From IMG/VR virus record IMGVR_UViG_3300023176_000477, positions 1 to 50,478 of that record: a stretch of 50,478 bases of DNA; one strand, written 5' to 3'. This document shows positions 1 to 26,978 of this stretch, in pieces; positions within the stretch are counted from its first letter, which is position 1; every line of letters begins with the position of its first letter. Origin of the DNA: a virus. Made by a program: the position numbers and the translations under genes. Under the pieces are notes generated by a model. The model saw nothing but the letters and a program-made list of their open reading frames with translations. It made no database searches and had not been told where the DNA came from.

Positions 1-139
1 GTTCCCACACTGCACACCAACCATATGGTGCTACTTGTTCCTGAAATTTAACGCAATAGTTATTAGAATAATATTCGCAATTACTACAATACTGACCAAT
101 TGTATTACTTCTGTTAACATATGCTCCTGGTAACGCCAT
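1..139 (-). CDS. Small four-cysteine protein, 3'-truncated by the window edge
   Basis: The ATG at 139 overlaps the stop of the upstream 42-aa gene (TAATG). It encodes MALPGAYVNRSN and then a Cys-x2-Cys, Cys, Cys arrangement ending GWC-x-VW before the sequence runs off base 1. The complete homologue at 41591-41758 has the same cysteines in 55 aa. The spacing recalls small high-potential iron-sulfur-like or zinc-binding phage proteins, but the function is unknown. It sits at the end of the small-protein cluster of the late operon. Confidence 0.7.
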   Translation of the reverse strand, partial: MALPGAYVNRSNTIGQYCSNCEYYSNNYCVKFQEQVAPYGWCAVWE

Positions 140-267
140 TATTTATTCTTACGTATTTTTTTAATTTTATTGTTATGTGTTTTAGCATATATAAAGTTTT
201 TAGTTTCACGAGTAACTGTACCTCTATAGGTTTTGCCACCCCACTTCCAACTTACTGTTTTAGCCAT
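139..267 (-). CDS. Small basic protein, 42 aa
   Basis: It encodes a 42-residue lysine-rich protein beginning MAKTVSWKWGGKTYRG and ending in a basic tail (NNKIKKIRKNK). The homologue at 41758-41886 is the same length with a few substitutions (G11D, R15E), which argues that it is a real gene. It lies between the DUF6321 gene and the four-cysteine gene and overlaps the latter by TAATG. The N-terminal part looks like a small beta barrel. I do not recognise a family. Confidence 0.7.
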   Translation of the reverse strand: MAKTVSWKWGGKTYRGTVTRETKNFIYAKTHNNKIKKIRKNK

Positions 268-268
268 A

Positions 269-565
269 CTACCACTTAACTTTATCAGCCCAATAAGCTG
301 CTGACATTTTACCTTTTTTAATATTTTTAGCGTGTCTTGCTTTAAAAGATTTACGTTTCTTTTTCATTTTATCTGATTCACCAGCTTTAGGTTTACCAGC
401 AGTCTTAGCACCTTGCTCACCAAATCTAATTAATTTATATTTGCCATTAGAACTAGCCATAACAACATGTGATTTACTTGGATGACTAGGTGTACGCTTA
501 GGTTTATTAACACCTTTAAGACCGTTCTTTTTCATGGTAGCTTTTACTCTATCTGGAACTGCCAT
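269..565 (-). CDS. DUF6321-like basic protein, 98 aa
   Basis: This strongly basic 98-residue protein has the core GLKGVNKPKRTPSH, SHVVMA, KLIRFGEQG, FKARHAKNI and the C-terminal SAAYWADKVKW. I recognise this as the DUF6321 type seen in many marine phages. Its role is unknown; nucleic-acid binding is an inference from charge. The ATG at 565 is preceded by AGGAGATATA. A near-identical-length homologue lies at 41886-42179, so the gene is kept on both sides of the exchanged cassette. Confidence 0.8.
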   Translation of the reverse strand: MAVPDRVKATMKKNGLKGVNKPKRTPSHPSKSHVVMASSNGKYKLIRFGEQGAKTAGKPKAGESDKMKKKRKSFKARHAKNIKKGKMSAAYWADKVKW

Positions 566-680
566 TATATCTCCTGTTTTCTTTACGTACTAAGTATACT
601 GATATTACGTCAATAAAGCTATTCGCAATGACAATTAATACTGCCATCAGGACAGTTACATATTTGAATAATTGTTTCAT
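549..680 (-). CDS. Small single-pass membrane protein, 43 aa
   Basis: The ATG at 680 overlaps the stop of the upstream 67-aa gene as ATGA, so translation is probably coupled. The product starts MKQLFKYVTVLMAVLIVIAN, has one hydrophobic segment (about residues 6-30) and a basic C-terminus RRYNGSSR that overlaps the start of the DUF6321 gene. The homologue at 42163-42294 has the same length without gaps and mostly conservative changes (F/Y, V/I, L/I), which supports this frame. The position and size would suit a holin-like or accessory lysis peptide, which is an inference. Confidence 0.55.
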   Translation of the reverse strand: MKQLFKYVTVLMAVLIVIANSFIDVISVYLVRKENRRYNGSSR

Positions 681-684
681 CCAT
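619..684 (-). CDS. Candidate 21-aa cysteine-rich peptide in an overlapping frame
   Basis: It encodes MDETIIQICNCPDGSINCHCE in a different frame of the same DNA as the 43-aa membrane protein. The core QICNC-x2-GS-x-NC also occurs in the right-hand copy (42233-42319), where a good AGGAGG precedes the start. On the left I see no Shine-Dalgarno sequence. Part of the conservation may be forced by the overlapping membrane frame, so this is weak. Confidence 0.3.
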   Translation of the reverse strand: MDETIIQICNCPDGSINCHCE

Positions 685-880
685 TTAATTTAAATAATAA
701 TTCTGTAAAGTTAGATTCTAACATATCTAATTCACTATTCATTTCTAATACCATAGCATCACAAGCGTTTTGATGTGATTTAATTTCTTCTATAGAGTTA
801 AATACCCAACCAAATGCACCAAGCATTGCTGATAACACTATAGGTATAATTGTTTTGGTGTCTATTTTTATTTGTGACAT
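677..880 (-). CDS. Small membrane protein with C-terminal helix, 67 aa
   Basis: It has a short N-terminus (MSQIKIDTK), one membrane segment (about residues 10-28) and an amphipathic, acidic helical region (EEIKSH, SELDMLESNFTELLFKL) that could be coiled coil. The ATG at 880 follows GTAGGAGAACA. The homologue at 42321-42524 is nearly identical in the second half and more variable in the membrane segment. It could be a holin, spanin-like or anchoring protein; no family is recognised. Confidence 0.75.
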   Translation of the reverse strand: MSQIKIDTKTIIPIVLSAMLGAFGWVFNSIEEIKSHQNACDAMVLEMNSELDMLESNFTELLFKLNG

Positions 881-887
881 TGTTCTC

Positions 888-1061
888 CTACATTAAGGCA
901 GCAACAACAACACCACCTACTGCTACCAATAAGCCTAATACTTTATAAAATTCTGCTTTGTCTAGTTTTGCATCTAGTTTACTATCGATTTCATCAAGGC
1001 GTTTTAATACCATATCTAACATCTCCTTTTGTGTATAACCATTACCAAGATAGTCAGACAT
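888..1061 (-). CDS. Small protein with C-terminal membrane segment, 57 aa
   Basis: It begins MSDYLGNGYTQKEMLDMVLK, followed by an amphipathic charged helix (RLDEIDSKLDAKLDK) and a C-terminal hydrophobic segment (GLLVAVGGVVVAAL). This tail-anchored design is common for small phage membrane proteins. The start overlaps the stop of the 52-aa gene by TAATG. The right copy (42532-42705) differs by few bases. It is probably part of a membrane or lysis-related cluster with its neighbours; the role is unknown. Confidence 0.75.
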   Translation of the reverse strand: MSDYLGNGYTQKEMLDMVLKRLDEIDSKLDAKLDKAEFYKVLGLLVAVGGVVVAALM

Positions 1062-1219
1062 TATGGAAGGTCATCCTCTGACATATAAATGTCATCACTC
1101 CAGGTGTATGATTTATCGTAGTAGTTACGATTTTCCCAATCCCAAGTGCTTAATTTTTTAAGAGATGATAGAATATCTTTTAAAAAAATACCTAATAAAA
1201 ATCCAATTATAAAATCCAT
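1061..1219 (-). CDS. Small protein with N-terminal membrane segment, 52 aa
   Basis: It encodes MDFIIGFLLGIFLKDILSSL, an N-terminal membrane anchor, then a tryptophan/tyrosine-rich and acidic tail (STWDWENRNYY, SEDDLP). The counterpart at 42705-42863 has only a few changes (for example ILSSLKK to IVSTLKR). It is the first conserved gene after the exchanged receptor cassette: identity between the copies stops about 17 bases upstream of its start. The function is unknown. Confidence 0.75.
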   Translation of the reverse strand: MDFIIGFLLGIFLKDILSSLKKLSTWDWENRNYYDKSYTWSDDIYMSEDDLP

Positions 1220-1227
1220 AAGCAGGA

Positions 1228-1923
1228 TTATAACATAAACTTTTTAGGTTTTCGTTTAACTATATTTTTAGATATCTTATTTATATTATTAACAAAACTT
1301 GTAATATTTTTTATTTGATTATAATAATTTAATGTTTCTTTATTAAATTCTTTATAATTTATATTAATGTTTTTATTAAATAATAAATACATCATTGGTT
1401 TATTTTTTTTAAAATTAACAATTCCTGGTTTGTTTTTATCTATTAATAACCAAGCACTATTAATAGGTCTTATCCATAAATTAATATTAAATGCACCTGG
1501 AACAAATTGTAAATTTGTTGTTTCTATATTAGGTGGCAAAGTAATTATTTCTGTATTTTTGATATCTGTATATAAATTATACGGTAATAAAAATTGCAAA
1601 TCTACAATATTATTTTTTTTATTAACTGCAATAACATTTTTTAAATAAGTAATTAAATCAATATTATTAGGTGCGTTTTTGTATTGAAAATTATAAGTTA
1701 CATTGTTTATATTTTTATCATAGTTAATTTCAATTTGTAAATCTAAAGGAGAGTTAATATAAAATAATCTATTATTTACTGAACTAACAGCAGGACATTT
1801 AGGATTATCTATTAAAGTATATTGTTCAATATTATTAAAAAAACCTTTTGGTACAAAAATATTATCTTCGTTTTTTATATCGTAATAGACATTAGCTTTT
1901 TGTAAATTAAAAAATATACTCAT
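1228..1923 (-). CDS. Cassette beta-rich protein, likely virion/receptor-binding, 231 aa
   Basis: This is an asparagine- and isoleucine-rich protein. It carries a CPA motif near residue 43 and a conserved VPGAFNINLWIRPIN block in the C-terminal half, followed by a basic C-terminus (KRKPKKFML). The CPA and PG-x-F-x-I-x2-W-x-R-x-I features recur in 43837-44523, and the second also in 43115-43840, so this is a family. It overlaps its upstream neighbour by TAATG. The position after the adhesin suggests a tail-fibre or host-recognition role, which is an inference. Base composition is even more AT-rich than its neighbours. Confidence 0.7.
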   Translation of the reverse strand: MSIFFNLQKANVYYDIKNEDNIFVPKGFFNNIEQYTLIDNPKCPAVSSVNNRLFYINSPLDLQIEINYDKNINNVTYNFQYKNAPNNIDLITYLKNVIAVNKKNNIVDLQFLLPYNLYTDIKNTEIITLPPNIETTNLQFVPGAFNINLWIRPINSAWLLIDKNKPGIVNFKKNKPMMYLLFNKNININYKEFNKETLNYYNQIKNITSFVNNINKISKNIVKRKPKKFML

Positions 1924-2612
1924 TATTTTTTAATATTCTTTTTATATCCGCCAACAAAAGTATTTTGTATTCTAGCTTTTTCAATTAATATTTTATTTTT
2001 AAATTTTTTATTATAAGGTTTAACTTTATAAATAAATTTTTCTCTTTTAAAAGGAACTAAATAGCACAATGGAGTTCCACTTTTAATAAACACTTCGTTA
2101 TCTTTAGAAGTAAACATTAATTGTAAAACTATTTCACTTATTTTATCAGCTTCATAAACTCCATAAGCTATATGCCAATCAGGATTGTAATCATATATTA
2201 ATGGAACTTGTCTTAAACTATATCCTCTTGGAACTATTAATTGAAAAGGACTTATAATTTTAAATACTTTTTTAATATTTGAATTAGAAAAATAATCTAC
2301 AAATTGATTATCAGTATGATGTTGTAAATAAAATCCTGTATGTTCAGGTACTTCCCAATAATGTTTTTTATTTTCATCTACACTTAAATACATATCACAA
2401 TGTGCATATATAATGATTCCTTCTTTAAATATATCTACAAAACTTGGACATTGTTTTGCGGTTCTTAAATTAGGAAATTTACTAGGTCCTCTTTCAACAT
2501 TACTAGGAATATTTTTAAAATATTTTGGTATATCTTTATAAGCAGGTTTAGGAATTATATTATTAATTGATAATAATTCTTTTCTTTCAGTAGTAATTAT
2601 TATTTTTTTCAT
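1923..2612 (-). CDS. DUF6065-like protein, 229 aa
   Basis: The ATG at 2612 follows AGGTGGAT, so I prefer it to the GTG two codons upstream. Family-like blocks are KQCPSFVDIFKEGI, D-x-YLSV, HH, FKIISPFQLIVPRGYS, PLIYDY and KSGTPLCYLVPFKRE. This matches what I know of DUF6065 proteins, which are frequent in marine phages and have no known function. The homologue at 44513-45250 keeps all these blocks but is otherwise strongly diverged. It sits between the adhesin group and the beta-rich protein in the variable cassette. Confidence 0.7.
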   Translation of the reverse strand: MKKIIITTERKELLSINNIIPKPAYKDIPKYFKNIPSNVERGPSKFPNLRTAKQCPSFVDIFKEGIIIYAHCDMYLSVDENKKHYWEVPEHTGFYLQHHTDNQFVDYFSNSNIKKVFKIISPFQLIVPRGYSLRQVPLIYDYNPDWHIAYGVYEADKISEIVLQLMFTSKDNEVFIKSGTPLCYLVPFKREKFIYKVKPYNKKFKNKILIEKARIQNTFVGGYKKNIKK

Positions 2613-2633
2613 ATCCACCTAGTTTAATTGATA

Positions 2634-3053
2634 TTAAGAAACAGACCAACCTTGTGTATTATCAGCTTGATACGCAGCTTCATCCCAATAATAATTATCA
2701 TTATTATAATCAGAAGGATAATCAATAGGTGGTTTCCAATCCCATATATTTGTATCTAGCACCCAACTATTTTTATCTAAAGGTTTTACAGGATAAAATA
2801 CATCATTGATTTCATCATAATAATCACCCATAGATGCAAAGTTTCCTCTAAATGGAGTGCCACCTAATATGTGTGTATTGTGCATTGTGTTATAAGAAGT
2901 TCTTACAACTTTTGCATTATTACAAAATTTTTTACTAATATAATCTTCCCAATTTTCATAACCTTCAGGTAATAAACTTAAATCGTCTTCATCTTTTCCT
3001 GTTAATACTCCAGTTACAATATTATTATTGTCTAGTACTGCATAATGTGCCAT
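2634..3053 (-). CDS. Adhesin-adjacent protein, probable tail-fibre accessory, 139 aa
   Basis: The start at 3053 (MAHYAVLDNNNIV) overlaps the stop of the glycine-rich gene by TAATG. Later blocks are TSYNT, FRGNFASMGDYYDE, F-x-PVKPLDKNSWVLD, W-x-W-x-PP and DYPSDY. I know this arrangement (ladder of R-x-NYA-x-G, KP-x-SW-x-LD, W-x-PP-x-x-P) from short proteins next to tail fibres in marine phages. It may be a fibre chaperone or a distal fibre piece. The counterpart at 45277-45651 keeps the blocks but differs elsewhere. Confidence 0.65.
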   Translation of the reverse strand: MAHYAVLDNNNIVTGVLTGKDEDDLSLLPEGYENWEDYISKKFCNNAKVVRTSYNTMHNTHILGGTPFRGNFASMGDYYDEINDVFYPVKPLDKNSWVLDTNIWDWKPPIDYPSDYNNDNYYWDEAAYQADNTQGWSVS

Positions 3054-3994
3054 TAGATACTCCAACTTACATTGTCTGAACCTGAAGTAAAATAATGTAT
3101 TTTATATTCACCACTTGTTACATAATTGTGTGTTAATAATGGACCAACAGTTGCTGTGTACTTAGCTGGATATTTAATAATAACTACACCTGAACCTCCA
3201 GCACCTGAAAAAGCATTATAATCACTTCCTCCACCACCGCCTGTGTTAACTGTTCCTGATACTCCATTTAATCCAGCGTCTTTTTCACCTCGGCCTCCAC
3301 CGCCAAGACCACCAGTTCCTTCTTGAAATGAACTAGCTGAACCACCACCACCTGCATAATATACATCAGAACCTTGAACATCTCCTACACTAGCAGTTGT
3401 AGCATCAGAAGCTGGTAATAAATTACAGATTACACCATCACCACCGTGAGTTCCATAACCGCCATAATTAGTAGTACCGACTTCAGAAGCACCGCCACCA
3501 CCGCCACCACCATCTTGTGTGTTAGCACCACCTCCTGCAAAACCTTGATTTGTTTCTCCTGCAGCACCTGCAGCACCACCATTATTAGAAGCACCTCCAC
3601 CTGAACCTCCAGTTCTATTTCCACCGTGGCGACCTTGACCACCACCGCCACCAATAGCAACTACAGGTTGAAAAGAACTTGCACTACCTTGACCACCGCC
3701 ATATCCGTATGTAGCACCACCACCTGCACCTACAGCAACTAAATAATCTTTTTCTAATTCAATAAAATTCTTAGGTGCAGCATCATCACCACCACCTGAG
3801 TTTTCTTCTGTAGTAGAGTTAATAAAACCTCCACCACCGCCACCACCAGTTCTACGGTTATTATCACCACCACCGCCACCGCCTCCACCAGCGACAACTA
3901 AATATTCTACAGCAAATCCTTTAAAAGCACTATTACTAAGAGTATTTGATTTACTTGCAGATATACCTTGATTACTTAATGATGTAATTGACAT
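3053..3994 (-). CDS. Glycine-rich tail adhesin, 313 aa
   Basis: After a 30-residue N-terminus it has the typical entry VEYLVVAGGGGGG and then more than 200 residues dominated by Gly runs separated by short variable segments, closing with GSGVVIIKYP and a 40-residue C-terminal tail. This organisation is that of glycine-rich adhesins and fibre tips with polyglycine II-type helices, which bind the host surface. The right copy (45654-46535) has the same architecture but different segments and lacks the C-terminal tail. It is followed by the accessory and DUF6065-like genes. Confidence 0.8.
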   Translation of the reverse strand: MSITSLSNQGISASKSNTLSNSAFKGFAVEYLVVAGGGGGGGGDNNRRTGGGGGGGFINSTTEENSGGGDDAAPKNFIELEKDYLVAVGAGGGATYGYGGGQGSASSFQPVVAIGGGGGQGRHGGNRTGGSGGGASNNGGAAGAAGETNQGFAGGGANTQDGGGGGGGASEVGTTNYGGYGTHGGDGVICNLLPASDATTASVGDVQGSDVYYAGGGGSASSFQEGTGGLGGGGRGEKDAGLNGVSGTVNTGGGGGSDYNAFSGAGGSGVVIIKYPAKYTATVGPLLTHNYVTSGEYKIHYFTSGSDNVSWSI

Positions 3995-4011
3995 TTAAAC
4001 TCCTATAATAA

Positions 4012-4341
4012 TTATGATATTTCTGTACCAAACACAGAAAAACTTACATCAGCACTTGAAGCTGTTGCAGTTACTACATCTGTAGTAGCTAAAGTTATAC
4101 CTAATGTTAATGTAACAGTATCATTAGCAGCTATATTTGCATCTTTAACAATAAAATGTTCATTAGCTTCTGCTGCACCTGATGGTCTAACAGATAAACT
4201 AAATGTTTTTGTTGCTGCACTTCTATTACAAACTACAATAGTTGAAACTATTGCTTCTGTTGAAGCTGGTACTGTATAAACATCAACTGAAGTAGTAAAA
4301 GCATCTCCAGTTTGTCCTAATACTTTATACGCATTTGCCAT
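4012..4341 (-). CDS. Beta-sandwich virion protein, 109 aa
   Basis: It starts MANAYKVLGQTGDAF and ends ADVSFSVFGTEIS. The alternating pattern and repeated Thr/Val strands predict a small all-beta domain, as in decoration or fibre-base proteins. AATTGGAGATAAAAT precedes the start. The homologue at 46544-46876 has nearly the same ends and a more variable middle. It lies between the tail proteins and the adhesin and is probably structural; no defined family is assigned. Confidence 0.7.
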   Translation of the reverse strand: MANAYKVLGQTGDAFTTSVDVYTVPASTEAIVSTIVVCNRSAATKTFSLSVRPSGAAEANEHFIVKDANIAANDTVTLTLGITLATTDVVTATASSADVSFSVFGTEIS

Positions 4342-4366
4342 ATTTTATCTCCAATTATATTTTTAT

Positions 4367-4393
4367 ATTATACTATACACCTACCAAAAGCAA
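4367..4393 (-). promoter_or_regulatory. Weak candidate promoter before the adhesin group
   Basis: On the minus strand TTGCTT and TATAAT are separated by 15 bases and lie upstream of the 109-aa gene. The same two boxes and spacing are kept in the right copy, although the spacer changes. The short spacing and the coding constraint from the end of the 67-aa gene keep this tentative. Confidence 0.25.
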
Positions 4394-4576
4394 GGTTTCT
4401 TCAGACAAATAAATTAATGCGTGTCCACTATCAGACCACAACATCATTTGTTCGCCTTCATTTATTCCACCACCACCTGCATCAGGTAGTAAATCTATAT
4501 CTTCATCTATTGGCAAATTACCAATAGTATCTATTCCTAAACTTCCACCTTCTTTGAGCATTAATAACATACCCAT
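4373..4576 (-). CDS. Small protein with conserved N-half and variable C-half, 67 aa
   Basis: The first part (MGMLLMLKEGGSLGIDTIGN, IDEDIDLLP) is essentially identical in the right copy (46906-47103). The remaining residues differ completely in sequence but end similarly (LLLVGV versus LLLVDV). The start overlaps the upstream gene by TAATG. The function is unknown. The sharp change inside a 67-aa protein marks a recombination joint or a module boundary. Confidence 0.65.
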   Translation of the reverse strand: MGMLLMLKEGGSLGIDTIGNLPIDEDIDLLPDAGGGGINEGEQMMLWSDSGHALIYLSEETLLLVGV

Positions 4577-5178
4577 TATGCACCCATTACTATAAAAGGA
4601 TGAACTTCTACTGGAGGTGCAACTTGACTTACATAAACTTTTTTAGCTGTGCTATCTGTTGCATCATAAACTAAAGCATAGTCTGCTTCAACATCTACTG
4701 TAATTCCAGTACCATCAGTAGCACCATCAAACATAGCTGTAGCTGAAGCTGCAGTAATAGCATCTATAGCTGCTTGACCTTCTGTTAATATACCTGCAAC
4801 TCTATCATTTTGGTCATTTATGTGTTGTGCTAGTACAGCCATTCTAACTGTAGTACCAATACCGTGTGATATACCTGTATCAGCTGCAGCACCTGCTGCT
4901 TCTTGTCTACCATCATAATCTCTTTCAACATCACTAAATGTTGTAGAACCTGATGTATGTGTTTTAACTACTACAATTTCTCTGTTAGATGTACTGTCTG
5001 GGTCAATAACTAAATATACCCAAGTATCTGCATCACCAGTTGTAGCTGATGTAATACCATTAGTACCATCTATTGTTGGTGTAGATGCAACGTCAAATGA
5101 TGTAGCACCTGCACTAAAATCTGAATTAGCAATAGTAGTTTCATAAAAGTTAAATACTTGTGTTGCTCTATCTGCCAT
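4576..5178 (-). CDS. Tail-associated virion protein, 200 aa
   Basis: I use the ATG at 5178 (MADRATQVFNFYE), which overlaps the upstream stop by TAATG; a TTG further upstream lies inside the previous gene and is unlikely. The N-terminal 100 residues are a beta-rich domain (DTWVYLVIDPDS, VVVKTHTSGST, FSDVERDYDGRQ) almost identical in 47103-47771. A short segment near residues 130-155 differs in length between the copies. It probably connects the tail tip to fibres, judging from position. Confidence 0.7.
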   Translation of the reverse strand: MADRATQVFNFYETTIANSDFSAGATSFDVASTPTIDGTNGITSATTGDADTWVYLVIDPDSTSNREIVVVKTHTSGSTTFSDVERDYDGRQEAAGAAADTGISHGIGTTVRMAVLAQHINDQNDRVAGILTEGQAAIDAITAASATAMFDGATDGTGITVDVEADYALVYDATDSTAKKVYVSQVAPPVEVHPFIVMGA

Positions 5179-7160
5179 TATGCTCCGTATCTCATTATAC
5201 CCCAAGCAGCAATACCTGGTGTATGTATTGATGTTACTTCTTCAATAGTACCTTGTCTAGTACCACGCACTGTAATAATAGCATACATTGTATCACTTCC
5301 AATTACTTCATTAGATTGTATAGGATAACTTATTTGCTCTACTACACCACGAATAATTTCTTGTGGTTCAAATATTTCTAATGTTACTGAATCACCTTCT
5401 TTAGCACGTAATGCTTTATATAAAGTATCTCCAAGACCTTTTACTTTTAATGGTTTTCTACCAGGTCTTTCTACTCTATCACTAATGTTTATAGGTATTT
5501 GTGCTACTACAAGTTCTGGTCTTGCTAATGCACGAAACTGTACTGATTTGACTTTAGGAGTTGACATACCATCTGTACTTCTAAGTATGACTTTACCTAT
5601 AATATATCTAGAAACTTCTGCTATTTGTTTTTCTTCGTCACCTGTACCACCAAGTTGTGTTAAAGCATTAGTAAACGTAGCAGACTCAGGTGCATCTAAA
5701 TCTTCAAATCTAGTTGAATATTGTAAACTTACTTGTGTATCTGCAGGCATTGTAACAGTAGATACTTCTGCACCTACAAACTGTTTAGATTCTGCAGTAA
5801 AAAAATCTGCAGCAGATAACACTACATAACCTTCAGATTCATATGTAGATGTTTCTTTATATACATCAGAACCTTCAACTACTATTACAAATTTACCATC
5901 AGATTGTGTAATACCTGATACATAACTATTACCAACTGTTTGTAAATCTCTAGCCAAACCACCTGTTGGTAGGTAATATCGCCACAAATTTACTTCATTA
6001 GTATCTTCTTTAACACCCATATACACACTATCACGGCTTACAAACATAGCGTGTGGTGTTGTATCTACGTTATCAACAACCCATTCTTTTACTAATTGTC
6101 TATTAGCAAGTACATATAAATCATCAGCATTAACAAGGTCTGCTCTGTATAACCTACCTACATCTCTTGTATTTTCTTTAGTACCAAAAAATATAATTCC
6201 TTCTGCAGCTGCAATAGAATGTATTTCTTCAAAAGGTATTTTTGTTTGTCCTTGATTTACAAATACACCAGATGACAATTTAAATGAATATATATTACCA
6301 TCAGTACTAGCTGTTAATACAACAGCTCCACCATCAACAATACCTGTTATTTCGTGTGTAGGTTCTACTTCTATTATTGCGTCAACAACAGCAAAAGCTG
6401 ATGCCCAGCTATCTGCAAATGCATCACCTTCCCATACATATTCTGCAGTACCATCATTACCAGTAACAAACAAAGTATTTTTAACAAACCATACACCTGT
6501 TAATCCACCTGTTGTATTAAAAGCTGTGTTATGTGTAGACCAACCGTGTCCATCTGGTTCATAATGTATAAACTCTGAGTTAGTATTAGTAGCATCAGCA
6601 GTAGTAAAATATACTGTGTTTCCAAATGCTGCAGCACCTGTAAAGTTATAAGTTGCACCATTAGTTGCAGCTAAAATAGCACTCCAAGTTTCTGTACTAG
6701 CATCATATTCGTGTACAGTTGTACCATCAGTGACGTATATATTACCGTTAGTAGTTTGTGTCATATAGTTATTGCTAGCACCAAAAGATAAACTTTCTGT
6801 AGCTGTCGTATATAACAAATGTATATGATATGCAGTTTCATCATCTCCGTGAAATACATCAATACCTTTGCTATCCCAAAATCTATTAACATCATCTGGT
6901 TTACCATCAGCTCTATGTGCAGTATCTAATCCTTGACCTGCAGAAAAATTGTTTCTTGAATATATACGTCCTAAGTTAGAAGTAAAATCTTCAGGGTTTT
7001 GTTTGACGTTTACGTTTTGTCCTTGTTGTACATCAGATGATTGTATAGTCATTTCACGACCAGGACCTACAGCTGTACGTAAATATATATTATCTAACTT
7101 TATATCATAACCAAATCGTTTTGGATTACGAACATTAGAAGTTGATGCAACTCTAGCCAT
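5178..7160 (-). CDS. Large tail protein (nozzle/hub-like), 660 aa
   Basis: It begins MARVASTSNVRNPKRFGYDI and contains many beta-strand repeats of the NIYVTDGTTVHEYDA, NTVYFTTAD and GIIFFGTKENTR kind, which suggests a beta-propeller-like central part. A C-terminal domain follows (KPLKVKGLGDTLYKAL, ISYPIQSN, WGIMRYGA). The size and place after the connector fit a tail nozzle or hub of a short-tailed phage. The right copy (47771-49786) is almost identical except for a segment near residue 120. It overlaps both neighbours by TAATG. The exact family is uncertain. Confidence 0.7.
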   Translation of the reverse strand: MARVASTSNVRNPKRFGYDIKLDNIYLRTAVGPGREMTIQSSDVQQGQNVNVKQNPEDFTSNLGRIYSRNNFSAGQGLDTAHRADGKPDDVNRFWDSKGIDVFHGDDETAYHIHLLYTTATESLSFGASNNYMTQTTNGNIYVTDGTTVHEYDASTETWSAILAATNGATYNFTGAAAFGNTVYFTTADATNTNSEFIHYEPDGHGWSTHNTAFNTTGGLTGVWFVKNTLFVTGNDGTAEYVWEGDAFADSWASAFAVVDAIIEVEPTHEITGIVDGGAVVLTASTDGNIYSFKLSSGVFVNQGQTKIPFEEIHSIAAAEGIIFFGTKENTRDVGRLYRADLVNADDLYVLANRQLVKEWVVDNVDTTPHAMFVSRDSVYMGVKEDTNEVNLWRYYLPTGGLARDLQTVGNSYVSGITQSDGKFVIVVEGSDVYKETSTYESEGYVVLSAADFFTAESKQFVGAEVSTVTMPADTQVSLQYSTRFEDLDAPESATFTNALTQLGGTGDEEKQIAEVSRYIIGKVILRSTDGMSTPKVKSVQFRALARPELVVAQIPINISDRVERPGRKPLKVKGLGDTLYKALRAKEGDSVTLEIFEPQEIIRGVVEQISYPIQSNEVIGSDTMYAIITVRGTRQGTIEEVTSIHTPGIAAWGIMRYGA

Positions 7161-8170
7161 TAGGTTGGATACAATATACTATTTAATTGAACTGGTTCTG
7201 GGTATTTAGACCTTAAATTACTTCTAGCTTGTTGTATTAATAACTGTTGATATCTTAATAAACTACTGCTAATACTATTAGAACTACCTACAGGATAGTT
7301 TTGTGCAGCCATTTGTTCTGTAATATATCTTGCATCAACATTTTTAATATCTTTACCAACTAGCATTTGAGCAGCTACACCAGCCATAACAATTGGTTCA
7401 TACTCTGTTTCTAAACCTACACTAGATAATGTTGTTTCTTCTGATGTTGGTGCTACAAATTTCTTTTTAAAAGTTACATACACAGTATGACCTGCTGATA
7501 TACCCACAAACTGTACAGCATGAACTACGTTGGGACCTGAAGTATAAGTTTTAGTTCTTTCTGTTTGTGTATCATCAGTCCATACAAAAGGATTAGGTAA
7601 GTCAATCATTTCTATAGCTACACCATTATATTTAAGTCCTGTTTGGTCTGAGCCTGATTGCCAATCTGTATATTGTGATATAGCTTTTAATGGTGCTATT
7701 AAATAATTATTAGTATCTACGTCTGTACCATATGTACCAAGTAATTTATAACCTGTACTAGCAGTAAGTTCTATTGTTTCTACGGCAAATAATGTAGGAT
7801 AAAGATTTTTAATTTGGTCTGATACTGCATCATATACTGCTTGTCTTGTAAATGCAGGAGCTATTTTAATTATATCGTTTGCATCATGTGTAGTAGCAGT
7901 AGTACCTCTAACTCCACGTTCAACTGTTATTTCATTAGTAACGGCATTAAGAGATTTAGAAAACATTAATTCTCTATTAACTTCTATAATTGCACCAGCA
8001 CCTAATGCGTCTTCTTCTTCTGTAGAAAACAGACCTTCTTCATAGTTAATGGTGCTTTGTGTTGTAGTTGTTACATCACCAGTTAAATAAGAATAAGATT
8101 CAACAGAATCCATTGGCTCTAGGTATTCTCTAAATACCCTGTCTACTAGGTTGCCTATTGTGTCACTCAC
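7160..8170 (-). CDS. Head-tail connector / tail protein, 336 aa
   Basis: It starts MSDTIGNLVDRVFREYLEPM and includes a strand-rich section (TVERGVRGTTATTHD), a helical section (TRQAVYDAVSDQIKNLYPTLF) and a C-terminal helical region rich in Gln/Ser. The size, the location between the capsid and the large tail protein, and the mixed helical/beta character fit an adaptor or tubular tail protein; this is an inference from position. Its 3' two-thirds are repeated almost unchanged at 49786-50478. Confidence 0.65.
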   Translation of the reverse strand: MSDTIGNLVDRVFREYLEPMDSVESYSYLTGDVTTTTQSTINYEEGLFSTEEEDALGAGAIIEVNRELMFSKSLNAVTNEITVERGVRGTTATTHDANDIIKIAPAFTRQAVYDAVSDQIKNLYPTLFAVETIELTASTGYKLLGTYGTDVDTNNYLIAPLKAISQYTDWQSGSDQTGLKYNGVAIEMIDLPNPFVWTDDTQTERTKTYTSGPNVVHAVQFVGISAGHTVYVTFKKKFVAPTSEETTLSSVGLETEYEPIVMAGVAAQMLVGKDIKNVDARYITEQMAAQNYPVGSSNSISSSLLRYQQLLIQQARSNLRSKYPEPVQLNSILYPT

Positions 8171-8178
8171 AATGACTC

Positions 8179-8511
8179 CTAACTTTGTTTAAATATAAGT
8201 TGTATATTTCTATCAGCTAATTCAGTTGCATCTGAAGATACTCTAATAAATCCAGCAGTAGCAAAAGCCCAACCACTAGGGTCAACTCTTACAACATCAC
8301 CAGCTGTAACTGTATAAGTTACTTCAGTACCATCAGTTTCTACTACATCTACCCAAGTACTTCCATCAAATGAAAAATCAAATGTTACGGCTGTACCTGT
8401 CATAGCTGCAGGAAATACTATACCAGATAGTAATAAACCATCTGCTTGTACACCTGTAGAGTTAACTGCATCTTCTGATATATCTATTAAAACTTTTTTT
8501 GATAATTGCAT
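8179..8511 (-). CDS. Small all-beta capsid-associated protein, 110 aa
   Basis: It encodes MQLSKKVLIDISEDAVNSTG followed by strands with repeated Thr/Val and a DFSFDGSTWVDV core, ending RNIQLIFKQS. It lies directly after the major capsid gene, where decoration or head-completion proteins usually sit. A GAGGACAAT precedes the start. The call as decoration protein is positional; no family is recognised. Confidence 0.6.
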   Translation of the reverse strand: MQLSKKVLIDISEDAVNSTGVQADGLLLSGIVFPAAMTGTAVTFDFSFDGSTWVDVVETDGTEVTYTVTAGDVVRVDPSGWAFATAGFIRVSSDATELADRNIQLIFKQS

Positions 8512-8537
8512 ATTGTCCTCACTATAGCAGAAGAAAT

Positions 8538-8559
8538 GGGAGGAAGGTGGATTCCCCCC
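8538..8559 (-). promoter_or_regulatory. GC-rich hairpin after the capsid gene
   Basis: In minus-strand RNA a GGGGGGAA arm pairs with TTCCTCCC, with one mismatch and a six-base loop, in the 64-base gap between the capsid and the 110-aa gene. It is followed only by a weak T-rich stretch. It could act as a partial terminator or an mRNA-end stabiliser that keeps capsid output above that of downstream genes. Confidence 0.45.
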
Positions 8560-8575
8560 AAATCTTCAAAATAAA

Positions 8576-9694
8576 TTAAGCTACGTCAGTAATCTTCAAA
8601 TGGTATGAAGGAGGACCAAAGTCGTATCCCATTTCCATGTAGATTGCTTTAGCAACTTGTGCATTTGCATCTTGGTCAATATCTCTTACGAATACTGTTC
8701 CGTATCCAGGGATATTTGTAAAGACTGGCTGTATAAAAGCAAAGTCTATGATGAATGCAGTATTTGCAGGAATGATATTAGGGTCAATAACCATCATACC
8801 AATTTGTCCAAATGGTGTGACAATTACGTCAATATCAATACCGGCTAAGTTTCTATCTCTAGGAAGAATAGCACCTGTAATACCAACGTTACCTGCTAGT
8901 AATTCTTTGTTAAGGTCCAATAATTGTTTTGGACTTAAGCAAAGTACTGGTTGTACCATTGGTGCGTGTGCATCATACAATCTCTTTAAAGAGTTTGCAA
9001 TAGTATCCCAAGAAAGAACTTGGTCTGTTCCTGAACCATCTCCAGCTGTATCGTTGTAGTATACGTTACCACCAACGAATGTTGGAGCTGTGTCATTATC
9101 TGCGTTAGCATTTAATGCACAGTATTCAGAAAGACCACGCATTTCTCTAGTACCAGCTCCTGGAGTTACATTAGCTCCATCAGCAAAAGTACCATTGAAT
9201 GCGAACCATTCTACTTCTCTAGCTACTTTTTCAAGAGCTAAAGACATTTGCTCTGCAAATTCATCAACGATTGGATTAGAACCAGCTAGTCCAAGTTGTG
9301 TAGATGCGGATGTTGTACCATCTCCATCAGAAGCGTCAAAAGCTGCAGCTCCTAATGTGAAAGTATTTTGTTGTTGAAATGTTGCCATTGCAGTGTAAGT
9401 CATCTTGACACCTTTATGGAATATCTGTGTCACACCTGTGTAAGCAACTCTATCTCTACCGAGATATTCAGTTGGTGTATTACCTTCTTGACCTTTAGTA
9501 GGCTCAGAAGATACAGTGTGTGAGTCAGCAGCTTGGATTTGCCAGAAAGTAGATTGTAAAACCTTACCTCCGTTTAATCCACCTGTTGCAGATAAGAAAG
9601 GAGTTCTTTGACCACCTACACGGAATAGCTCCCCAGAAAAGTTATTAATATTCTGGGAGTAAATTGCGTTACCTGTCAGAGTAATCTCTGCCAT
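8576..9694 (-). CDS. Major capsid protein, SU10/DUF5309-like HK97 fold, 372 aa
   Basis: The features fit the SU10-type major capsid family: an N-terminal region RTPFLSATGGLNGG, a W/Q-rich segment (STFWQIQAADSH), the helix EQMSLALEKVAREVEWFAFN followed by GTR-x-MRGLSEY, and a beta-rich C-terminal half (LAGIDIDVIVTPFG, NIPGYGTVFVRDI). It is the shell subunit. ACGGAGGTGTACA is a strong ribosome-binding site before the ATG at 9694. The codon composition is less AT-biased than its neighbours, as expected for a highly expressed gene. The scaffold gene precedes it directly. Confidence 0.88.
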   Translation of the reverse strand: MAEITLTGNAIYSQNINNFSGELFRVGGQRTPFLSATGGLNGGKVLQSTFWQIQAADSHTVSSEPTKGQEGNTPTEYLGRDRVAYTGVTQIFHKGVKMTYTAMATFQQQNTFTLGAAAFDASDGDGTTSASTQLGLAGSNPIVDEFAEQMSLALEKVAREVEWFAFNGTFADGANVTPGAGTREMRGLSEYCALNANADNDTAPTFVGGNVYYNDTAGDGSGTDQVLSWDTIANSLKRLYDAHAPMVQPVLCLSPKQLLDLNKELLAGNVGITGAILPRDRNLAGIDIDVIVTPFGQIGMMVIDPNIIPANTAFIIDFAFIQPVFTNIPGYGTVFVRDIDQDANAQVAKAIYMEMGYDFGPPSYHLKITDVA

Positions 9695-9732
9695 TGTACA
9701 CCTCCGTATTGTGTCGTATTAAATTCTTTTAC

Positions 9733-10194
9733 TTATTTTTTTTGTTGTTCCATAGCATTTAACCTAGCTCTAAGTGAATCTTTAACAGACGCACCTTTTA
9801 ATGCTTTAGCTAATTGCTCATTAACATCAAGAGGTATTTCTGAAGTAGAATTTGCATCAAGTGCAGCTACTCTAGCACGTGCATCATCTTGTACAACCGG
9901 TTCAGGTTCAGATTGTGGTATAACCTCTACCTGTCCTGTTGGTTCAAAACCATACTCATCCTTAGCAAACTGTGCGATAGACTCTAAATCTACAGGGCCA
10001 TCATACACTTGTTTTAACGCCTTGCCGAAACCTTTGTCAGTAGATAATCCTAACTTACCAAAGACATTGTTAATTTCTTTATCTTTAAAAGAAGCTAACT
10101 CAGCCTCAAGTTTTTTGATAGTTTCATCTTTTCTATCAATTGTTTCTCTCATTTGTTTTACACCATGTTCTTGCGGTGCATCAAATTCTTCCAT
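9733..10194 (-). CDS. Scaffold protein, 153 aa
   Basis: This acidic, helical protein has a coiled-coil-like N-terminal part (KQMRETIDRKDETIKKLEAEL, about residues 13-36), a Pro/Glu-rich linker near residues 90-102 and a basic C-terminal helix (DSLRARLNAMEQQKK). This is the usual design of a procapsid scaffold, and the gene lies immediately upstream of the capsid gene. GGAGGTACAAG precedes the ATG. It is the first gene of a transcript that probably starts near 10389. Confidence 0.78.
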   Translation of the reverse strand: MEEFDAPQEHGVKQMRETIDRKDETIKKLEAELASFKDKEINNVFGKLGLSTDKGFGKALKQVYDGPVDLESIAQFAKDEYGFEPTGQVEVIPQSEPEPVVQDDARARVAALDANSTSEIPLDVNEQLAKALKGASVKDSLRARLNAMEQQKK

Positions 10195-10395
10195 CTTGTA
10201 CCTCCACTATGTATTAACCTATCAGACAAGACCATAGGCATCTTGCCGTGGTGCTACCTTTACCACTTGACTTATCTCTCTGGTAGCTACAAGCTATAAG
10301 TCCATTACTCTACGATTTTAATACGAGCTTTCAACGTAGGCTTCGAAAGCTGATTTGCAGGTCTATTTGTAGCGGACCACGCAACGCTTAAACTT
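10195..10395 (-). ncRNA. Structured 5' leader of the capsid transcript
   Basis: This is the longest gap within the late operon. In about 195 nt it holds several inverted repeats: 10231-10252 (ACCA/GGCA with TGCC/TGGT), 10261-10285 (TACCA/TGGTA), 10284-10296 (TAGC/GCTA), 10326-10351 (AGCTTTC/GAAAGCT) and 10360-10378 (GGTC/GACC). It is less AT-rich than the flanking genes, and I find no credible ORF. It lies between a strong promoter and the scaffold start and is probably a regulatory leader or a processed RNA. Confidence 0.5.
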
Positions 10396-10423
10396 ATTAT
10401 ACACTAATCTTCTATTAGTCCAA
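10396..10423 (-). promoter_or_regulatory. Internal late promoter for scaffold and capsid genes
   Basis: On the minus strand TTGGAC (10418-10423) and a perfect TATAAT (10396-10401) are 16 bases apart. The -35 box lies in the last codons of the 332-aa gene, and the predicted start is near 10389. This would give capsid and scaffold a separate strong transcript, as is usual for the most abundant virion proteins. Confidence 0.55.
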
Positions 10424-11402
10424 CTATATTACCATCTTTTTGAATAGCTCCTAAAGTTGCTCCTTGCATTGATTGCATTTCTGCATTTATTCTTGTAACT
10501 CTTTTAGTTGCATCTGCATCTCCTAACGCAGCTTCTTCTAATGTTGTTATATCTAAATCTCTACCAATACTTGAAGCACTACTTATAATTCCACTAGCAT
10601 TTTCATACAATTGTCTAGCCATTTGCAAGTCCATACCTCGTTGTTTTAATTCATTAAATCTACCAAATGAATATGAAAAACCTCTACTTACAGCTTCTGC
10701 ACCTAATGTAATTGTATCTATAGCTCCATTTAATACTTTATCTTCTATTTTAGGATTAATTAAAGATGCAAATATTGTTGCATCATCATATTCTACACCT
10801 AAATAATCAGCTAACATATTTTTAACTTCAGGTATACGATTATTAATTGCAGCATATACTGTATCAATTCTTTGTTGAAATTCTACAGGTGCAACATCTC
10901 CAACCATTTCATTAAATTCATCTTCAAAATCAGAAAAATCTTGTATACCTATTTCTCTTAATGTATTTTTAAAACTTTCTTTTACACCTATAGCTTCTAT
11001 TTCTGACATTTTAAGTGTTATTCCATCATCATTAAACAACCAACCAAATTCTTTTTTATATTCACTTGATGCTCTTGTAAAAGATAAAGCTAAATCTTTA
11101 TCACCACCATAATTTGCATAACCTTCAGCATATTTTTTAACTATTGATTCAGGTAAAAATCCATATAATGTTCTAGCAACAGATAAAGCATACTGATAAT
11201 CTCCTCCAGATTGTGATTGAGATTGAGATGATTGTTGAGGTGGAGTATATTCTTTATAACCATCTCTTTCATATCTTTCAAATTCAGATAATCCACCTGG
11301 GTCGTTTTGCCTAAGGTCTGTATTAACCATTTTGACATCACCACCAGGTCCTTGTACATAAATTTGACCTCGTCTTACTTCAATTACTGGATTTTCTGCC
11401 AT
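10404..11402 (-). CDS. Putative internal virion protein, 332 aa
   Basis: It has an N-terminal beta piece (MAENPVIEVRRGQIYVQGPG), a Gln/Ser-rich linker (residues about 56-66) and a long helical remainder (YALSVARTLYGFLPESIVKK, ASSEYKKEFGWLF). It is the last of the series of large genes between portal and scaffold, each joined to the next by TAATG or a very short gap. In short-tailed phages this place is taken by proteins ejected with the DNA. No family is recognised. Confidence 0.6.
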   Translation of the reverse strand: MAENPVIEVRRGQIYVQGPGGDVKMVNTDLRQNDPGGLSEFERYERDGYKEYTPPQQSSQSQSQSGGDYQYALSVARTLYGFLPESIVKKYAEGYANYGGDKDLALSFTRASSEYKKEFGWLFNDDGITLKMSEIEAIGVKESFKNTLREIGIQDFSDFEDEFNEMVGDVAPVEFQQRIDTVYAAINNRIPEVKNMLADYLGVEYDDATIFASLINPKIEDKVLNGAIDTITLGAEAVSRGFSYSFGRFNELKQRGMDLQMARQLYENASGIISSASSIGRDLDITTLEEAALGDADATKRVTRINAEMQSMQGATLGAIQKDGNIVGLIED

Positions 11403-12754
11403 TATCTAATCCTTTGTGTTGACGGTTCTAAGAAATTTTGACTTCGTATAATGTTTCCACCAAAAGAAGATATCATATCTCTTGCAAAATCATTAACTAC
11501 ACTACCTATATTATTTGCTAAACCTTCTTGTACTAAATATTTATTAGCTTCATTAACATCATTTAATGTAGCTACTTTGTTATAAACATATCCATACTTA
11601 CCATCTGGGTCTATTTCCATATCCCATTTGTTTTTAATAGTATTTTTTGTAATTCTATCTATAACACTCCATTTAGTTTCTTTATCGTATTGTGGATATA
11701 AAGCATATCTTGCATCTTTTAATTCATTTTCTAAAGTTTCTAAATATGAAGCATCTTGTCTATATTCACCAGCATGTTTTCCAATTTCATCTATGTAATC
11801 TTTTTTTGCAGAAGGAGGTAACCAGTCATCTATAACAGTCATAACTTCTTTTTCACCAACTGTAGTTTGTTCAATAGTAGAATTTGTTATAAACGATTCT
11901 AAATCTTTATCTAACGGTGTATCTCTATATTTATCTACTAATCTAAATAATTGACTTCTAGCTTTATTATTATCCCATGAACCCATAACAACTTTATTTG
12001 CTATCCATTCCATAGTTTTATCATCAACACTTGCACCACTAGGTAATAAATCATATAAATATCCTTTTTGTGCTGATAAATCTAAAGCATATTGTGCTTC
12101 ATTAACATTGTAAAAATCTAAAGCAGTAATTTCAGGTTCTGTCAAATTAAGTTCTTTTAATACTTGACTCATAACTCCTGCAGTATTTACATAATCATTA
12201 GCTGAAGCTATATCTTGAAATAATAAATATCCTTCTTGCCATTTTCTTCTATAAGTTGGAGATTTAAATTTAGTAGTTCCTTCATTTAATTTATTAAAAC
12301 TATTCATTGCTATATCTATTTGGTCTGAAATAGTAAAATCAGTAGTAGACATTACTACAGCTTCTTCAGGTGTTAATGTTCCAATTTGTGTTTGAAAGAA
12401 ATTTTCTGGTACTTCTATCCAGTTTTCTGTTTGAACATACATACTATCGTATTCAGTTGGAGTAACGTAATGAGCTGTTTCATCTTTTACCATATCTTTA
12501 ATGTATTCAAATGGATTTCCACCTTTATAATCAATAACATCTGTATAATCTTCTGCTGGATTAAATGCTAAATATTCTCCAGTTTCTGTGGGAACTATTA
12601 TTTTATAAGTTAAACTTGATAAAAAAGCTTTGTTTAATTCAAATTTACTTGTACCTCCAGCTTGATATAATTCTTTTTCTATTTCTTCTAATGATTTAGG
12701 ACCAACAATAATTATTACTGCTCCAGGAGGTAATTTAGTTTTATCTAAAGCCAT
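11402..12754 (-). CDS. Putative internal virion protein, 450 aa
   Basis: It starts MALDKTKLPPGAVIIIVGPK and is mostly helical and acidic, with no recognised catalytic motif. It is joined to the 332-aa gene by TAATG. It is interpreted as one of the ejection or inner-core proteins, from its position in the block and the lack of tail-fibre or enzyme features. Confidence 0.58.
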   Translation of the reverse strand: MALDKTKLPPGAVIIIVGPKSLEEIEKELYQAGGTSKFELNKAFLSSLTYKIIVPTETGEYLAFNPAEDYTDVIDYKGGNPFEYIKDMVKDETAHYVTPTEYDSMYVQTENWIEVPENFFQTQIGTLTPEEAVVMSTTDFTISDQIDIAMNSFNKLNEGTTKFKSPTYRRKWQEGYLLFQDIASANDYVNTAGVMSQVLKELNLTEPEITALDFYNVNEAQYALDLSAQKGYLYDLLPSGASVDDKTMEWIANKVVMGSWDNNKARSQLFRLVDKYRDTPLDKDLESFITNSTIEQTTVGEKEVMTVIDDWLPPSAKKDYIDEIGKHAGEYRQDASYLETLENELKDARYALYPQYDKETKWSVIDRITKNTIKNKWDMEIDPDGKYGYVYNKVATLNDVNEANKYLVQEGLANNIGSVVNDFARDMISSFGGNIIRSQNFLEPSTQRIR

Positions 12755-12756
12755 TA

Positions 12757-14544
12757 TTAAGACCCACTTTCTGCATTATTGTACATTTGTATATCATACC
12801 CTGCCATTTCCATTATACCAGGTCCAAACCTATCTTTAATTTTTTGTAGCTTTTTCCAAGTGTCTACATGATGATTTGCATTACCAGGAACTAAATCTGG
12901 ATTATTAACTTGTGCAAAATAACTAGGATTTACTCCAAATTGTCCTGTTTGTTCAATTTCATTTTTCCACCAACCAAAAAAACCATCTTGATTTCTTATT
13001 TTAAATTCTCTTTGCCCACTAATAATATCCCAATAATCTTGTTCATCAGCATCTAATTCAAATCTTTGAGGAAACTGGGACATAACCATTTTATTTATAC
13101 CCCAGTTATGTGGAGTATTACCTGTTATTTTTGCAGGTAACATAGTATCTAAGATATACCATAAAGATGTAAGTTTTGAACCTTGCCAACCAGCACTTTG
13201 CCAATATCTACTTTGATGTGCTAAATGTTTATTTAAATCTTCATAGGGTATTACATCAATATTTTCTTTTACAAATTTTGGTAACAAACCATATTTATCT
13301 AATACACTATTTAAAGCATCTGAAGCATTAAGTGTTGTAGCAACTATAGCAGCAGTTCCTTGCCATGCTAATTGATTATATAATTCATACCAAAGATTAC
13401 TAGCTATTCCTCCTAGTCTACCAGTAAGTGCACCTGTTGCTTTAGCTCCTTTAGCAGCTTTTCTACCTTGATTAGCAGCTTTTAAAAGGCTATCACCCAT
13501 TGCATGTCTTCCTTTAATAGCATCTTTAATTATACCTGTTTTAACACCTATTCTTACAGCTGTTTCTATACCTTCTCCTATTGGGTCTAATATAGATATA
13601 ATTCCTCTATACAATACTTTGCTTAATTTACCACTTATTTTTACAGGATTAAATTTACTTAAAGAATTGTATTTATCAAAAACATCTGCACCAAATGTTT
13701 TAACTAATCCTAGTAATAAACTTTCGCCATTTAATTTTGCATTTTGCATAGTAGGATGATTGTTAATATAATCTAAAGCTCTACGTTCAGAATCAGTCAT
13801 TTTATCTAATATTGATTCTTTAAAACTTTTATGTATATCAGGGTCATATTCTTCTATTTTTTCTGGAAATATATTAGGGTCATTTAATTTAGCTGCACCA
13901 AGAGAACCACCAAAACCTTGATTATTAAGTATATTAGTTAATGCTTCTGCTTGATTAACTGTTTTATTAGGGTCACCTGCAAAACTATCTACTAAATTGT
14001 AACCTTCATCTACTTTAGCTTTTAATTGATTTATTAATTTAGGATTTTCATCTGCCCACATTTGCCAAAGTTTTTGATATTCATCTTTACTTACTTGGTA
14101 ATCTTTACCAAATAAAATACTATTTTGTGCAGGAGGTTTACCTTTACCAGATTTTTTAATTTCATTTTGCCATACATCTTCTATAGTTCTACCTTTGTAT
14201 GGTCCTTCTTTAAACGTAGCATTTAATGCAGAAAATTGTTTACCTAAGTCATCACCTTTAGTAGATACTTCAAATGTTTTATTAGCTGTTTCTTGTTTTG
14301 CAATATCTTCTACAATTAATTCATCAGGTATAGTGTCAGGTATTCCTATATTTGCACGATACTTTACACTATCAATTAAATCATCTGCTAACTGTTGTAA
14401 TAAATCATTTTTGTCTTCTAACAATGGAATTAAATCTTCAAACTGTAATACAGCTCTATCTATTTCTATTTGAGGTATATTAAATTCTTTTTGTAAAGCA
14501 TTAAGTTCGTCTAAAACTTTTTGTCTAATTTCATCTTTGTCCAT
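12757..14544 (-). CDS. Putative internal virion protein with hydrophobic centre, 595 aa
   Basis: It has a helical N-terminal half (MDKDEIRQKVLDELNALQKE). A central region of amphipathic and glycine/alanine-rich segments near residues 330-410 (AANQGRKAAKGAKATGALTG, AWQGTAAIVATTLNASDAL) could insert in a membrane. A Trp-rich C-terminal part (DEQDYWDIISG, FFGWWKNEIEQTG) follows. Such membrane-active stretches are common in ejected proteins that build a channel across the envelope. The role is inferred, not recognised. Confidence 0.58.
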   Translation of the reverse strand: MDKDEIRQKVLDELNALQKEFNIPQIEIDRAVLQFEDLIPLLEDKNDLLQQLADDLIDSVKYRANIGIPDTIPDELIVEDIAKQETANKTFEVSTKGDDLGKQFSALNATFKEGPYKGRTIEDVWQNEIKKSGKGKPPAQNSILFGKDYQVSKDEYQKLWQMWADENPKLINQLKAKVDEGYNLVDSFAGDPNKTVNQAEALTNILNNQGFGGSLGAAKLNDPNIFPEKIEEYDPDIHKSFKESILDKMTDSERRALDYINNHPTMQNAKLNGESLLLGLVKTFGADVFDKYNSLSKFNPVKISGKLSKVLYRGIISILDPIGEGIETAVRIGVKTGIIKDAIKGRHAMGDSLLKAANQGRKAAKGAKATGALTGRLGGIASNLWYELYNQLAWQGTAAIVATTLNASDALNSVLDKYGLLPKFVKENIDVIPYEDLNKHLAHQSRYWQSAGWQGSKLTSLWYILDTMLPAKITGNTPHNWGINKMVMSQFPQRFELDADEQDYWDIISGQREFKIRNQDGFFGWWKNEIEQTGQFGVNPSYFAQVNNPDLVPGNANHHVDTWKKLQKIKDRFGPGIMEMAGYDIQMYNNAESGS

Positions 14545-21841: not shown

Positions 21842-21843
21842 TG

Positions 21844-22254
21844 TTAACCCTGTCGTCTATTAAGTAAATCTAAAATAATAGGTGATTTACTAACTTCATA
21901 CATAGCAGCAAGAGTAATATCTATACTTTGTGTGTTTGACTCAGGTATCATACCAGGACCTAAAGGTGCTCCTGATGTAGGAACTTCAGTAGGTCTTTCA
22001 GATGGTGCAAACACATTTGGTCTTTGTGGTTGTTGTTGTGATGTAGGTCTAGGTTGTATGTTACGTTGTGCAGGTAACGGAGCTGCTTTTTGTTGATTTA
22101 ATAATTGTTGTTGTTGACCATAAGGTAAACCAGGCATATCTCTTAAAGGTTGTTTTGAACTACCTGGACCACCATCAGTTCTATTTCTATTTTGTGTAGC
22201 TACTGGAGCTGGTTTGGCAGGTTGTCTATATCCACCTCGTCTATTTTTCGCCAT
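21844..22254 (-). CDS. Pro/Gln-rich basic virion-associated protein, 136 aa
   Basis: The ATG at 22254 follows AGGAGAATTTG; a TTG one codon upstream has too short a spacing. The sequence is disordered: KNRRGGYRQPAKPAP, repeated Gln/Pro runs (YGQQQQLLNQQKAAP, PTSQQQPQRPN) and a short folded C-terminus (SIDITLAAMYEVSKSP). Its place between portal and the giant protein suggests a linker or assembly factor. No homology is recognised. Confidence 0.6.
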   Translation of the reverse strand: MAKNRRGGYRQPAKPAPVATQNRNRTDGGPGSSKQPLRDMPGLPYGQQQQLLNQQKAAPLPAQRNIQPRPTSQQQPQRPNVFAPSERPTEVPTSGAPLGPGMIPESNTQSIDITLAAMYEVSKSPIILDLLNRRQG

Positions 22255-22399
22255 CAAATTCTCCTGTTAATAAAATTATAATACCTGGTGCTGGATATAT
22301 GATTTGTTTAACATTATCACCCATAACATCAAGTTCATCAACAACACCATATTCATTGTATATAGTTTCCCAAAAAGTATCTTCGTAATATTCTTCCAT
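22241..22399 (-). CDS. Small acidic protein, 52 aa
   Basis: The ATG at 22399 overlaps the portal stop by TAATG, and the stop at 22241 lies within the next gene. The product, MEEYYEDTFWETIYNEYGVV and so on, is acidic, with a hydrophobic end (PAPGIIILLTGEF). The tight coupling on both sides supports a real gene. The role is unknown. Confidence 0.55.
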   Translation of the reverse strand: MEEYYEDTFWETIYNEYGVVDELDVMGDNVKQIIYPAPGIIILLTGEFDGEK

Positions 22400-26081: not shown

Positions 26082-26105
26082 TATTAACTAACTTTCCGTA
26101 GATGT

Positions 26106-26133
26106 TTGTATAGTGAGAATTATATGCTATAGT
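26106..26133 (+). promoter_or_regulatory. Rightward early promoter
   Basis: TTGTAT (26106-26111) and TATAGT (26128-26133) are 16 bases apart, with a TGC just before the -10 box (extended -10 form). Transcription would start near 26140 and give the early unit a leader of about 600 nt that is rich in hairpins. The boxes are host sigma-70 type, in keeping with the lack of a phage RNA polymerase. Confidence 0.55.
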
Positions 26134-26497: not shown

Positions 26498-26498
26498 T

Positions 26499-26734: not shown

Positions 26735-26753
26735 AGAAAGGACAGTGAGAGAT

Positions 26754-26971: not shown

Positions 26972-26978
26972 TATTGAT

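Follow-up and report, generated by a model that had tools for sequence, protein, structure and literature searches.

The 50,478 bp contig analysed here, which we refer to as the window, carries a diverged block of tail genes common to both of its ends. Within the block, a run of adhesin-type and accessory genes differs far more than the genes on either side, which raises two questions: whether both blocks belong to one genome, and whether the genes between the conserved flanks form a host-recognition cassette that phages exchange by recombination.

The original prediction took the blocks for two copies in one genome. A single 50-kb genome with two diverged tail-adhesin blocks, such as one expressed and one silent cassette, has in its favour that both blocks lie on one contig, but several observations leave this reading with next to no probability. 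A perfect 127-nt match at the end of the contig joins the blocks. It is the longest exact suffix repeat of the window, and we take its length to be the maximum k-mer size of a widely used short-read assembler (Table 1). Separate contigs carry each of the two sequences past this join. Two of them, L018 (3300023170_000474) and L075 (3300023172_000545), match the left-hand piece and run on beyond window position 1, with sequence of their own that is ~84% identical to 42235-41010 in the right-hand piece; L018 starts at exactly the 127-mer. A third, G028 (3300023170_000124), has 0 mismatches to window positions 7853-14722, extends into the right-hand copy, to which the 1000 nt checked have 0 mismatches, compared to 41 to the left-hand copy, and runs on to 29311. 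Because G028 crosses the join without mismatch, 7853-50478 represents one closed phage, which G028 indicates to close at 42.6 kb without the left-hand piece. The 660-aa tail protein gene is single-copy in 28 of the 29 relatives checked, a set that includes fragment records, and is split over the contig ends in the remaining one. A true duplication in one genome was ruled out by the 127-nt node, the single-copy relatives and the separate contigs, and the two-copy contig instead reads as an assembly splice of two closely related phages, hereafter strains A and B. Since the window is a splice, every comparison of the copies is a comparison of strains. Exact direct repeats of 46-127 nt end several 41-44 kb relatives, as in circular assemblies. 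More generally, caution is due when metagenome contigs end in diverged "duplications", as these can be two strains joined at a k-mer.

As L018 and G028 share a sample number, strains A and B probably co-occur. A second difference between them lies in the place of the B genes for 567-aa and 354-aa proteins (window 38235-41011), where A has a single 475-aa gene (L018:8463-9890). The window encodes a major capsid protein of the SU10 type (8576-9694; PF17236, E 1e-40), and TerL is found at 24168-26081; the 567-aa protein was considered as TerL and rejected. A search with the 567-aa protein returned no relatives among named phages, and by TerL named phages reach only about 25-29% identity. The phage collection holds no close isolates of the group to which the strains belong. 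TerL relatives in bacterial genome contigs belong to metagenome bins of unrelated groups, and we therefore make no host call. No tRNAs were detected in the window. One relative, L078, stands out at 61,426 bp against the 41-44 kb of the others, with one 660-aa gene, and may be an over-extended assembly.

The lower border of the divergent stretch is sharp. The A and B blocks are ~95-97% identical up to a common ATAAGCAGGATTATAACAT (1218-1236 in A, 42862-42880 in B) and drop just past it, with the maximum-likelihood change-point 18 nt upstream of the 52-aa start codon, where identity falls from 0.96 to 0.47; the border predicted at 1236/42880 is thus borne out. The upper border had been placed too early. 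Identity does not return at 4000/46540 but stays at 63-67% to about 4348, a span that covers the 109-aa gene, rises to 75-88% around the 67-aa gene, to about 4745, and exceeds 95% only from 4796/47389. For this reason the divergent stretch includes the 109-aa and 67-aa genes as well as the C-terminal portion of the 209-aa protein. The second change-point falls inside the 209-aa gene, at codon 127 (about 4823), ~800 nt beyond the border first proposed. A longer member of the 209-aa family, from L063, weakly matches the tail-protein profile phrog_1197 (E 8.8e-5).

Judged from profile matches and predicted models, the cassette between these borders encodes a Gly-rich protein of adhesin type with a small partner and, besides these, two or three DUF6065-related proteins whose predicted fold is dUTPase-like (Table 1). 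The match of the Gly-rich protein to PF21722 exceeds the cut-off of that family in A, B and the relative L126. As had been predicted, the strains carry remodelled versions of the Gly-rich, accessory, DUF6065-like and beta-rich genes, whose proteins are 31-39% identical, and the right-hand copy has two extra genes. The assignment to DUF6065 holds at the level of the 231a family, of which 12 of 32 members match PF19541 (accepted up to E 1; best match E 1.1e-7), but not for the two window proteins alone, which do not match. The predicted model of 231a (pLDDT 89.8) resembles the dUTPase fold by Foldseek at E ~1e-4, with a TM-score by query of only ~0.4, and four of the 32 family members weakly match PF00692. 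Hits of the 231b family (231, 228 and 241 aa) to the dUTPase fold are weaker than those of 231a.

Table 1. Features of the window, in window coordinates, with strand (. where unstranded) and the basis of each assignment.
Feature	Position	Strand	Basis or remark
Strain A piece	1..7725	.	99.99-100% to L018 (1-7852) and L075 (1-5782)
Joining node A/B	7726..7852	.	127-nt exact match, = 50352-50478; assembly node
Strain B, single closed genome, 42,626 bp	7853..50478	.	match to contig G028
Exchanged stretch, strain A	1237..4823 (upper end about 4800-4825)	-	change-points
Exchanged stretch, strain B	42881..47415 (upper end approximate; >95% identity from 47389)	-	corresponds to A stretch
52-aa gene, conserved; its start is the sharp border	1061..1219	-	clustered breaks at ATG
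231-aa remote DUF6065 relative (231b), strain A	1228..1923	-	hhalign probability 94%, E 9e-8 to 231a family
231-aa DUF6065-family protein (231a), strain A	1923..2618	-	family match PF19541; dUTPase-like predicted fold
143-aa partner, proposed fibre chaperone (B: 45277-45651, 124 aa)	2634..3065	-	phrog_7759, unknown function; position only
313-aa Gly-rich adhesin-type protein, strain A	3053..3994	-	PF21722 Gly_rich_2, 65.9 bits (cut-off 24.3)
109-aa gene (B: 46544-46876)	4012..4341	-	A vs B 60-63%, vs L126 79%
67-aa gene (B: 46906-47103)	4373..4576	-	A vs B 63%; kept in most relatives
209-aa gene (B: 47103-47798, 231 aa), probable tail-fibre base, N-terminal part conserved; holds second border	4576..5205	-	breakpoints at codons 95-170
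Extra strain B gene, 78 aa, no family	42882..43118	-	profile search
Extra strain B gene, 241 aa, further 231b paralogue	43115..43840	-	22% to A 231b, E 5e-10
228-aa 231b protein, strain B	43837..44523	-	31% to A 231b
245-aa DUF6065-family protein, strain B	44513..45250	-	39-41% to A 231a
293-aa Gly-rich adhesin-type protein, strain B	45654..46535	-	PF21722, 55.7 bits
Exonuclease	33436..34494	+	phrog_284, E 2e-42
Single-strand annealing protein, proposed agent of exchange	34732..35298	+	phrog_3290, E 2.6e-10

Homology and position point to host recognition as the likeliest function of the cassette, because Gly-rich adhesins act in this way elsewhere and because the cassette follows a fibre-base gene. 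The Gly-rich adhesin determines host recognition in Pam3, and likewise in T-even phages (PMC9608196), and probably does so in the hafunaviruses, haloarchaeal tailed viruses in which one species carries adhesins of different groups with differing host range (PMC8651126). The cassette resembles T-even gp38 and Pam3 gp24-gp25 (PMC9608196) in setting a Gly-rich receptor-binding domain beside a small partner, with a conserved attachment part and a variable tip. By analogy, the Gly-rich protein may form the receptor-binding tip, the 143-aa protein may, from its position, serve as its chaperone, and the swap would then change host range. Unlike in those systems, the 313-aa protein had no sequence match among the sequences of solved structures, the 143-aa family had none among Protein Data Bank sequences, and the chaperone role is putative: a search for homology of the 143-aa family to known tail-fibre chaperones of the Tfa/gp25 type found none, phrog_7759 being its sole match. 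The hafunavirus locus is similar in that a small gene comes after the Gly-rich adhesin gene and both lie in a hypervariable region, and the variation in adhesin and host range within a hafunavirus species is, by analogy, the same pattern as here. HSTV-2, a hafunavirus, also has a DUF6065 gene. However, the hafunaviruses are a different virus family, the DUF6065 gene of HSTV-2 adjoins thymidylate synthase, outside any demonstrated adhesin cassette, and the 143-aa family showed no relation to the HSTV-2 small proteins with which it was compared.

Alternatively, the exchanged tail module may serve a purpose other than host recognition, such as protection from host defence or chemical modification. 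The DUF6065-related proteins, with their dUTPase-like predicted fold and, in some relatives, a halogenase alongside, are atypical for adhesins and favour such a role, but all G-type cassettes, that is those of the A and B type, start with the Gly-rich adhesin-type protein after the fibre-base gene, and such a gene tracks host range in hafunaviruses (PMC8651126). We consider this alternative improbable, although it is the one that fares best. Strains A and B themselves are without a halogenase. Among the relatives, a tryptophan halogenase (PF04820) lies within the cassette and adjoins the DUF6065-related genes in L070 (15334-16446), L039 (15246-16409) and L023 (16014-17111), and one of the same family also occurs in L024, L043, L045 and L053. 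As in some of these cassettes, the cyanophages Syn10 and syn9, the former being the source of the halogenase VirX1 (PMC8407142), encode a relative of the 231-aa protein immediately after tryptophan halogenase-region genes; in contrast to our loci, the halogenase-region genes there are not an established exchanged Gly-rich cassette. The pairing of halogenase and DUF6065 genes is suggestive, not proven. It is conceivable, though we regard it as a long shot, that the DUF6065-related proteins and a flavin halogenase chemically modify the Gly-rich adhesin or its partner, and that adhesin and modification are swapped as a unit; if true, such a modification system would explain what viral halogenases like VirX1 do in nature. 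That DUF6065-related genes repeatedly occur with Gly-rich adhesins, joined in some relatives by halogenases, offers a lead on proteins of unknown function. This lead is the part worth following, and the halogenase-bearing relatives are the most interesting by-product of the analysis.

To place the A/B difference among related phages, 66 loci were gathered with the 660-aa protein and their cassettes typed. Besides the Gly-rich and DUF6065-related type of A and B, we found a U type, hybrids, and a small-protein type. The U type is a tandem array of three (L027, L051 and L076) or six proteins, each about 170-215 aa long, and the six-protein cassettes (L042:8203-11500, and also L020, L030, L034 and L048) look like a doubled three-gene unit. 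On the flank tree (660-aa protein, 45 loci), cassette type changes at least 15 times, and sisters with near-identical flanks hold unrelated cassettes; close sisters of different type are L032/L046, L034/L033, L056/L058 and L020/L021. Cassette type is more clustered on this tree than under shuffling, and so exchange is frequent but not unlimited.

Comparison of related contigs, which the original prediction had proposed as its check, revealed breaks clustered at two places and no gradual divergence. Among exchanged pairs, 43 of 48 break between -45 and +5 nt of the 52-aa ATG, versus ~6% expected, and 56 of 82 at codons 95-170 of the 209-aa gene, versus ~12% expected, with the pairs in both counts sharing strains and thus not being independent. 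The remainder (5/48 and 26/82) break elsewhere, partly where flanks are only 82-84% alike. These data also bear on whether there is exchange at all, or whether the block stays where it is, between fixed flanks, and selection makes it evolve very rapidly. The A and B genes are still recognisably homologous and in the same order (31-41% identity), as fast evolution in place would have it. Against this stand the unrelated gene sets in close sisters and the distribution of identities in pairs whose flanks are at least 88% identical, where most cassette proteins are either ~94-100% or ~25-45% alike, with some U-type pairs at 50-60%. The 231a protein of A moreover groups with phages of distant flanks, and we judge evolution in place to be very unlikely.

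That grouping makes strain A the strongest single case of exchange. To strain B, A is 94% identical in the 660-aa protein, 41% in 231a and 63% in the 109-aa protein; to L126 the corresponding values are 39%, 72% and 79%. In the 231a tree, A groups with L125-L127 (SH-aLRT 99) and A+B is rejected (AU p 0.0014), while the flank tree rejects A+L125+L126 (AU p 4e-48), such that cassette and flank phylogenies conflict. The A+B hypothesis was fixed by the finding, and the group of A with L125-L127 was chosen post hoc, which makes its p-value descriptive. In the flank tree L126 sits on a very long branch, and the argument rests on its distance rather than its exact placement. The 143-aa tree likewise joins A with L125-L127, but for this short protein A+B is not rejected (AU p 0.085).

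We therefore put at roughly 85% the reading that A and B, co-occurring phages of ~42 kb with ~96% identical tail genes, carry different versions of a probable receptor-recognition cassette that is exchanged by recombination in conserved flanks. The exchange in conserved flanks that was originally predicted stands, on the clustered breaks and the tree conflict, but it took place between strains rather than copies and its second border lies further out. The exchange is real, well bounded, and of an already known kind; it provides a natural adhesin-cassette swap between co-occurring phages with both borders located. The cassette extends from the C-terminal part of the 209-aa fibre-base gene to the start of the conserved 52-aa gene. 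One crossover would fall within the N-terminal half of the fibre-base gene, which is conserved, and the other at the start of the 52/57-aa genes, with the block between them replaced by that of another phage. The swap may be driven by the phage's own annealing protein, as Rad52-like phage recombinases tolerate diverged flanks (PMC3945230). The likeness to that system is that diverged phages recombine via partly conserved flanks, and that both an annealing protein and an exonuclease are encoded here; the difference is that the published mosaicism concerns temperate coliphages in the laboratory, whereas here only its traces are seen (PMC3945230). The searches turned up no distant backbone with a near-identical cassette and hence no recent donor; a search for the donor of the B cassette with its 245-aa protein found only the strain B contig.

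Diversity-generating retroelements and invertible segments act on phage adhesin genes, and a built-in diversifying device of either kind has this precedent, but the replacement of whole genes rather than points within one segment, the lack of a second copy in B, and a scan of the larger window proteins that found no reverse transcriptase or site-specific recombinase family largely exclude it and leave it a negligible chance.

Two further features were observed near the cassette. Just after the 57-aa gene, about 25 loci other than A and B (for example L021:6696-8414 and L042:12180-13910) encode a protein of ~500-670 aa that has Thr-/Pro-rich stretches and appears to carry a signal peptide. In L063 (12172-15035), the sequence beyond the cassette is 95-97% identical to strain A but the tail genes only 78-82%, a sign of another recombination just downstream of the cassette.
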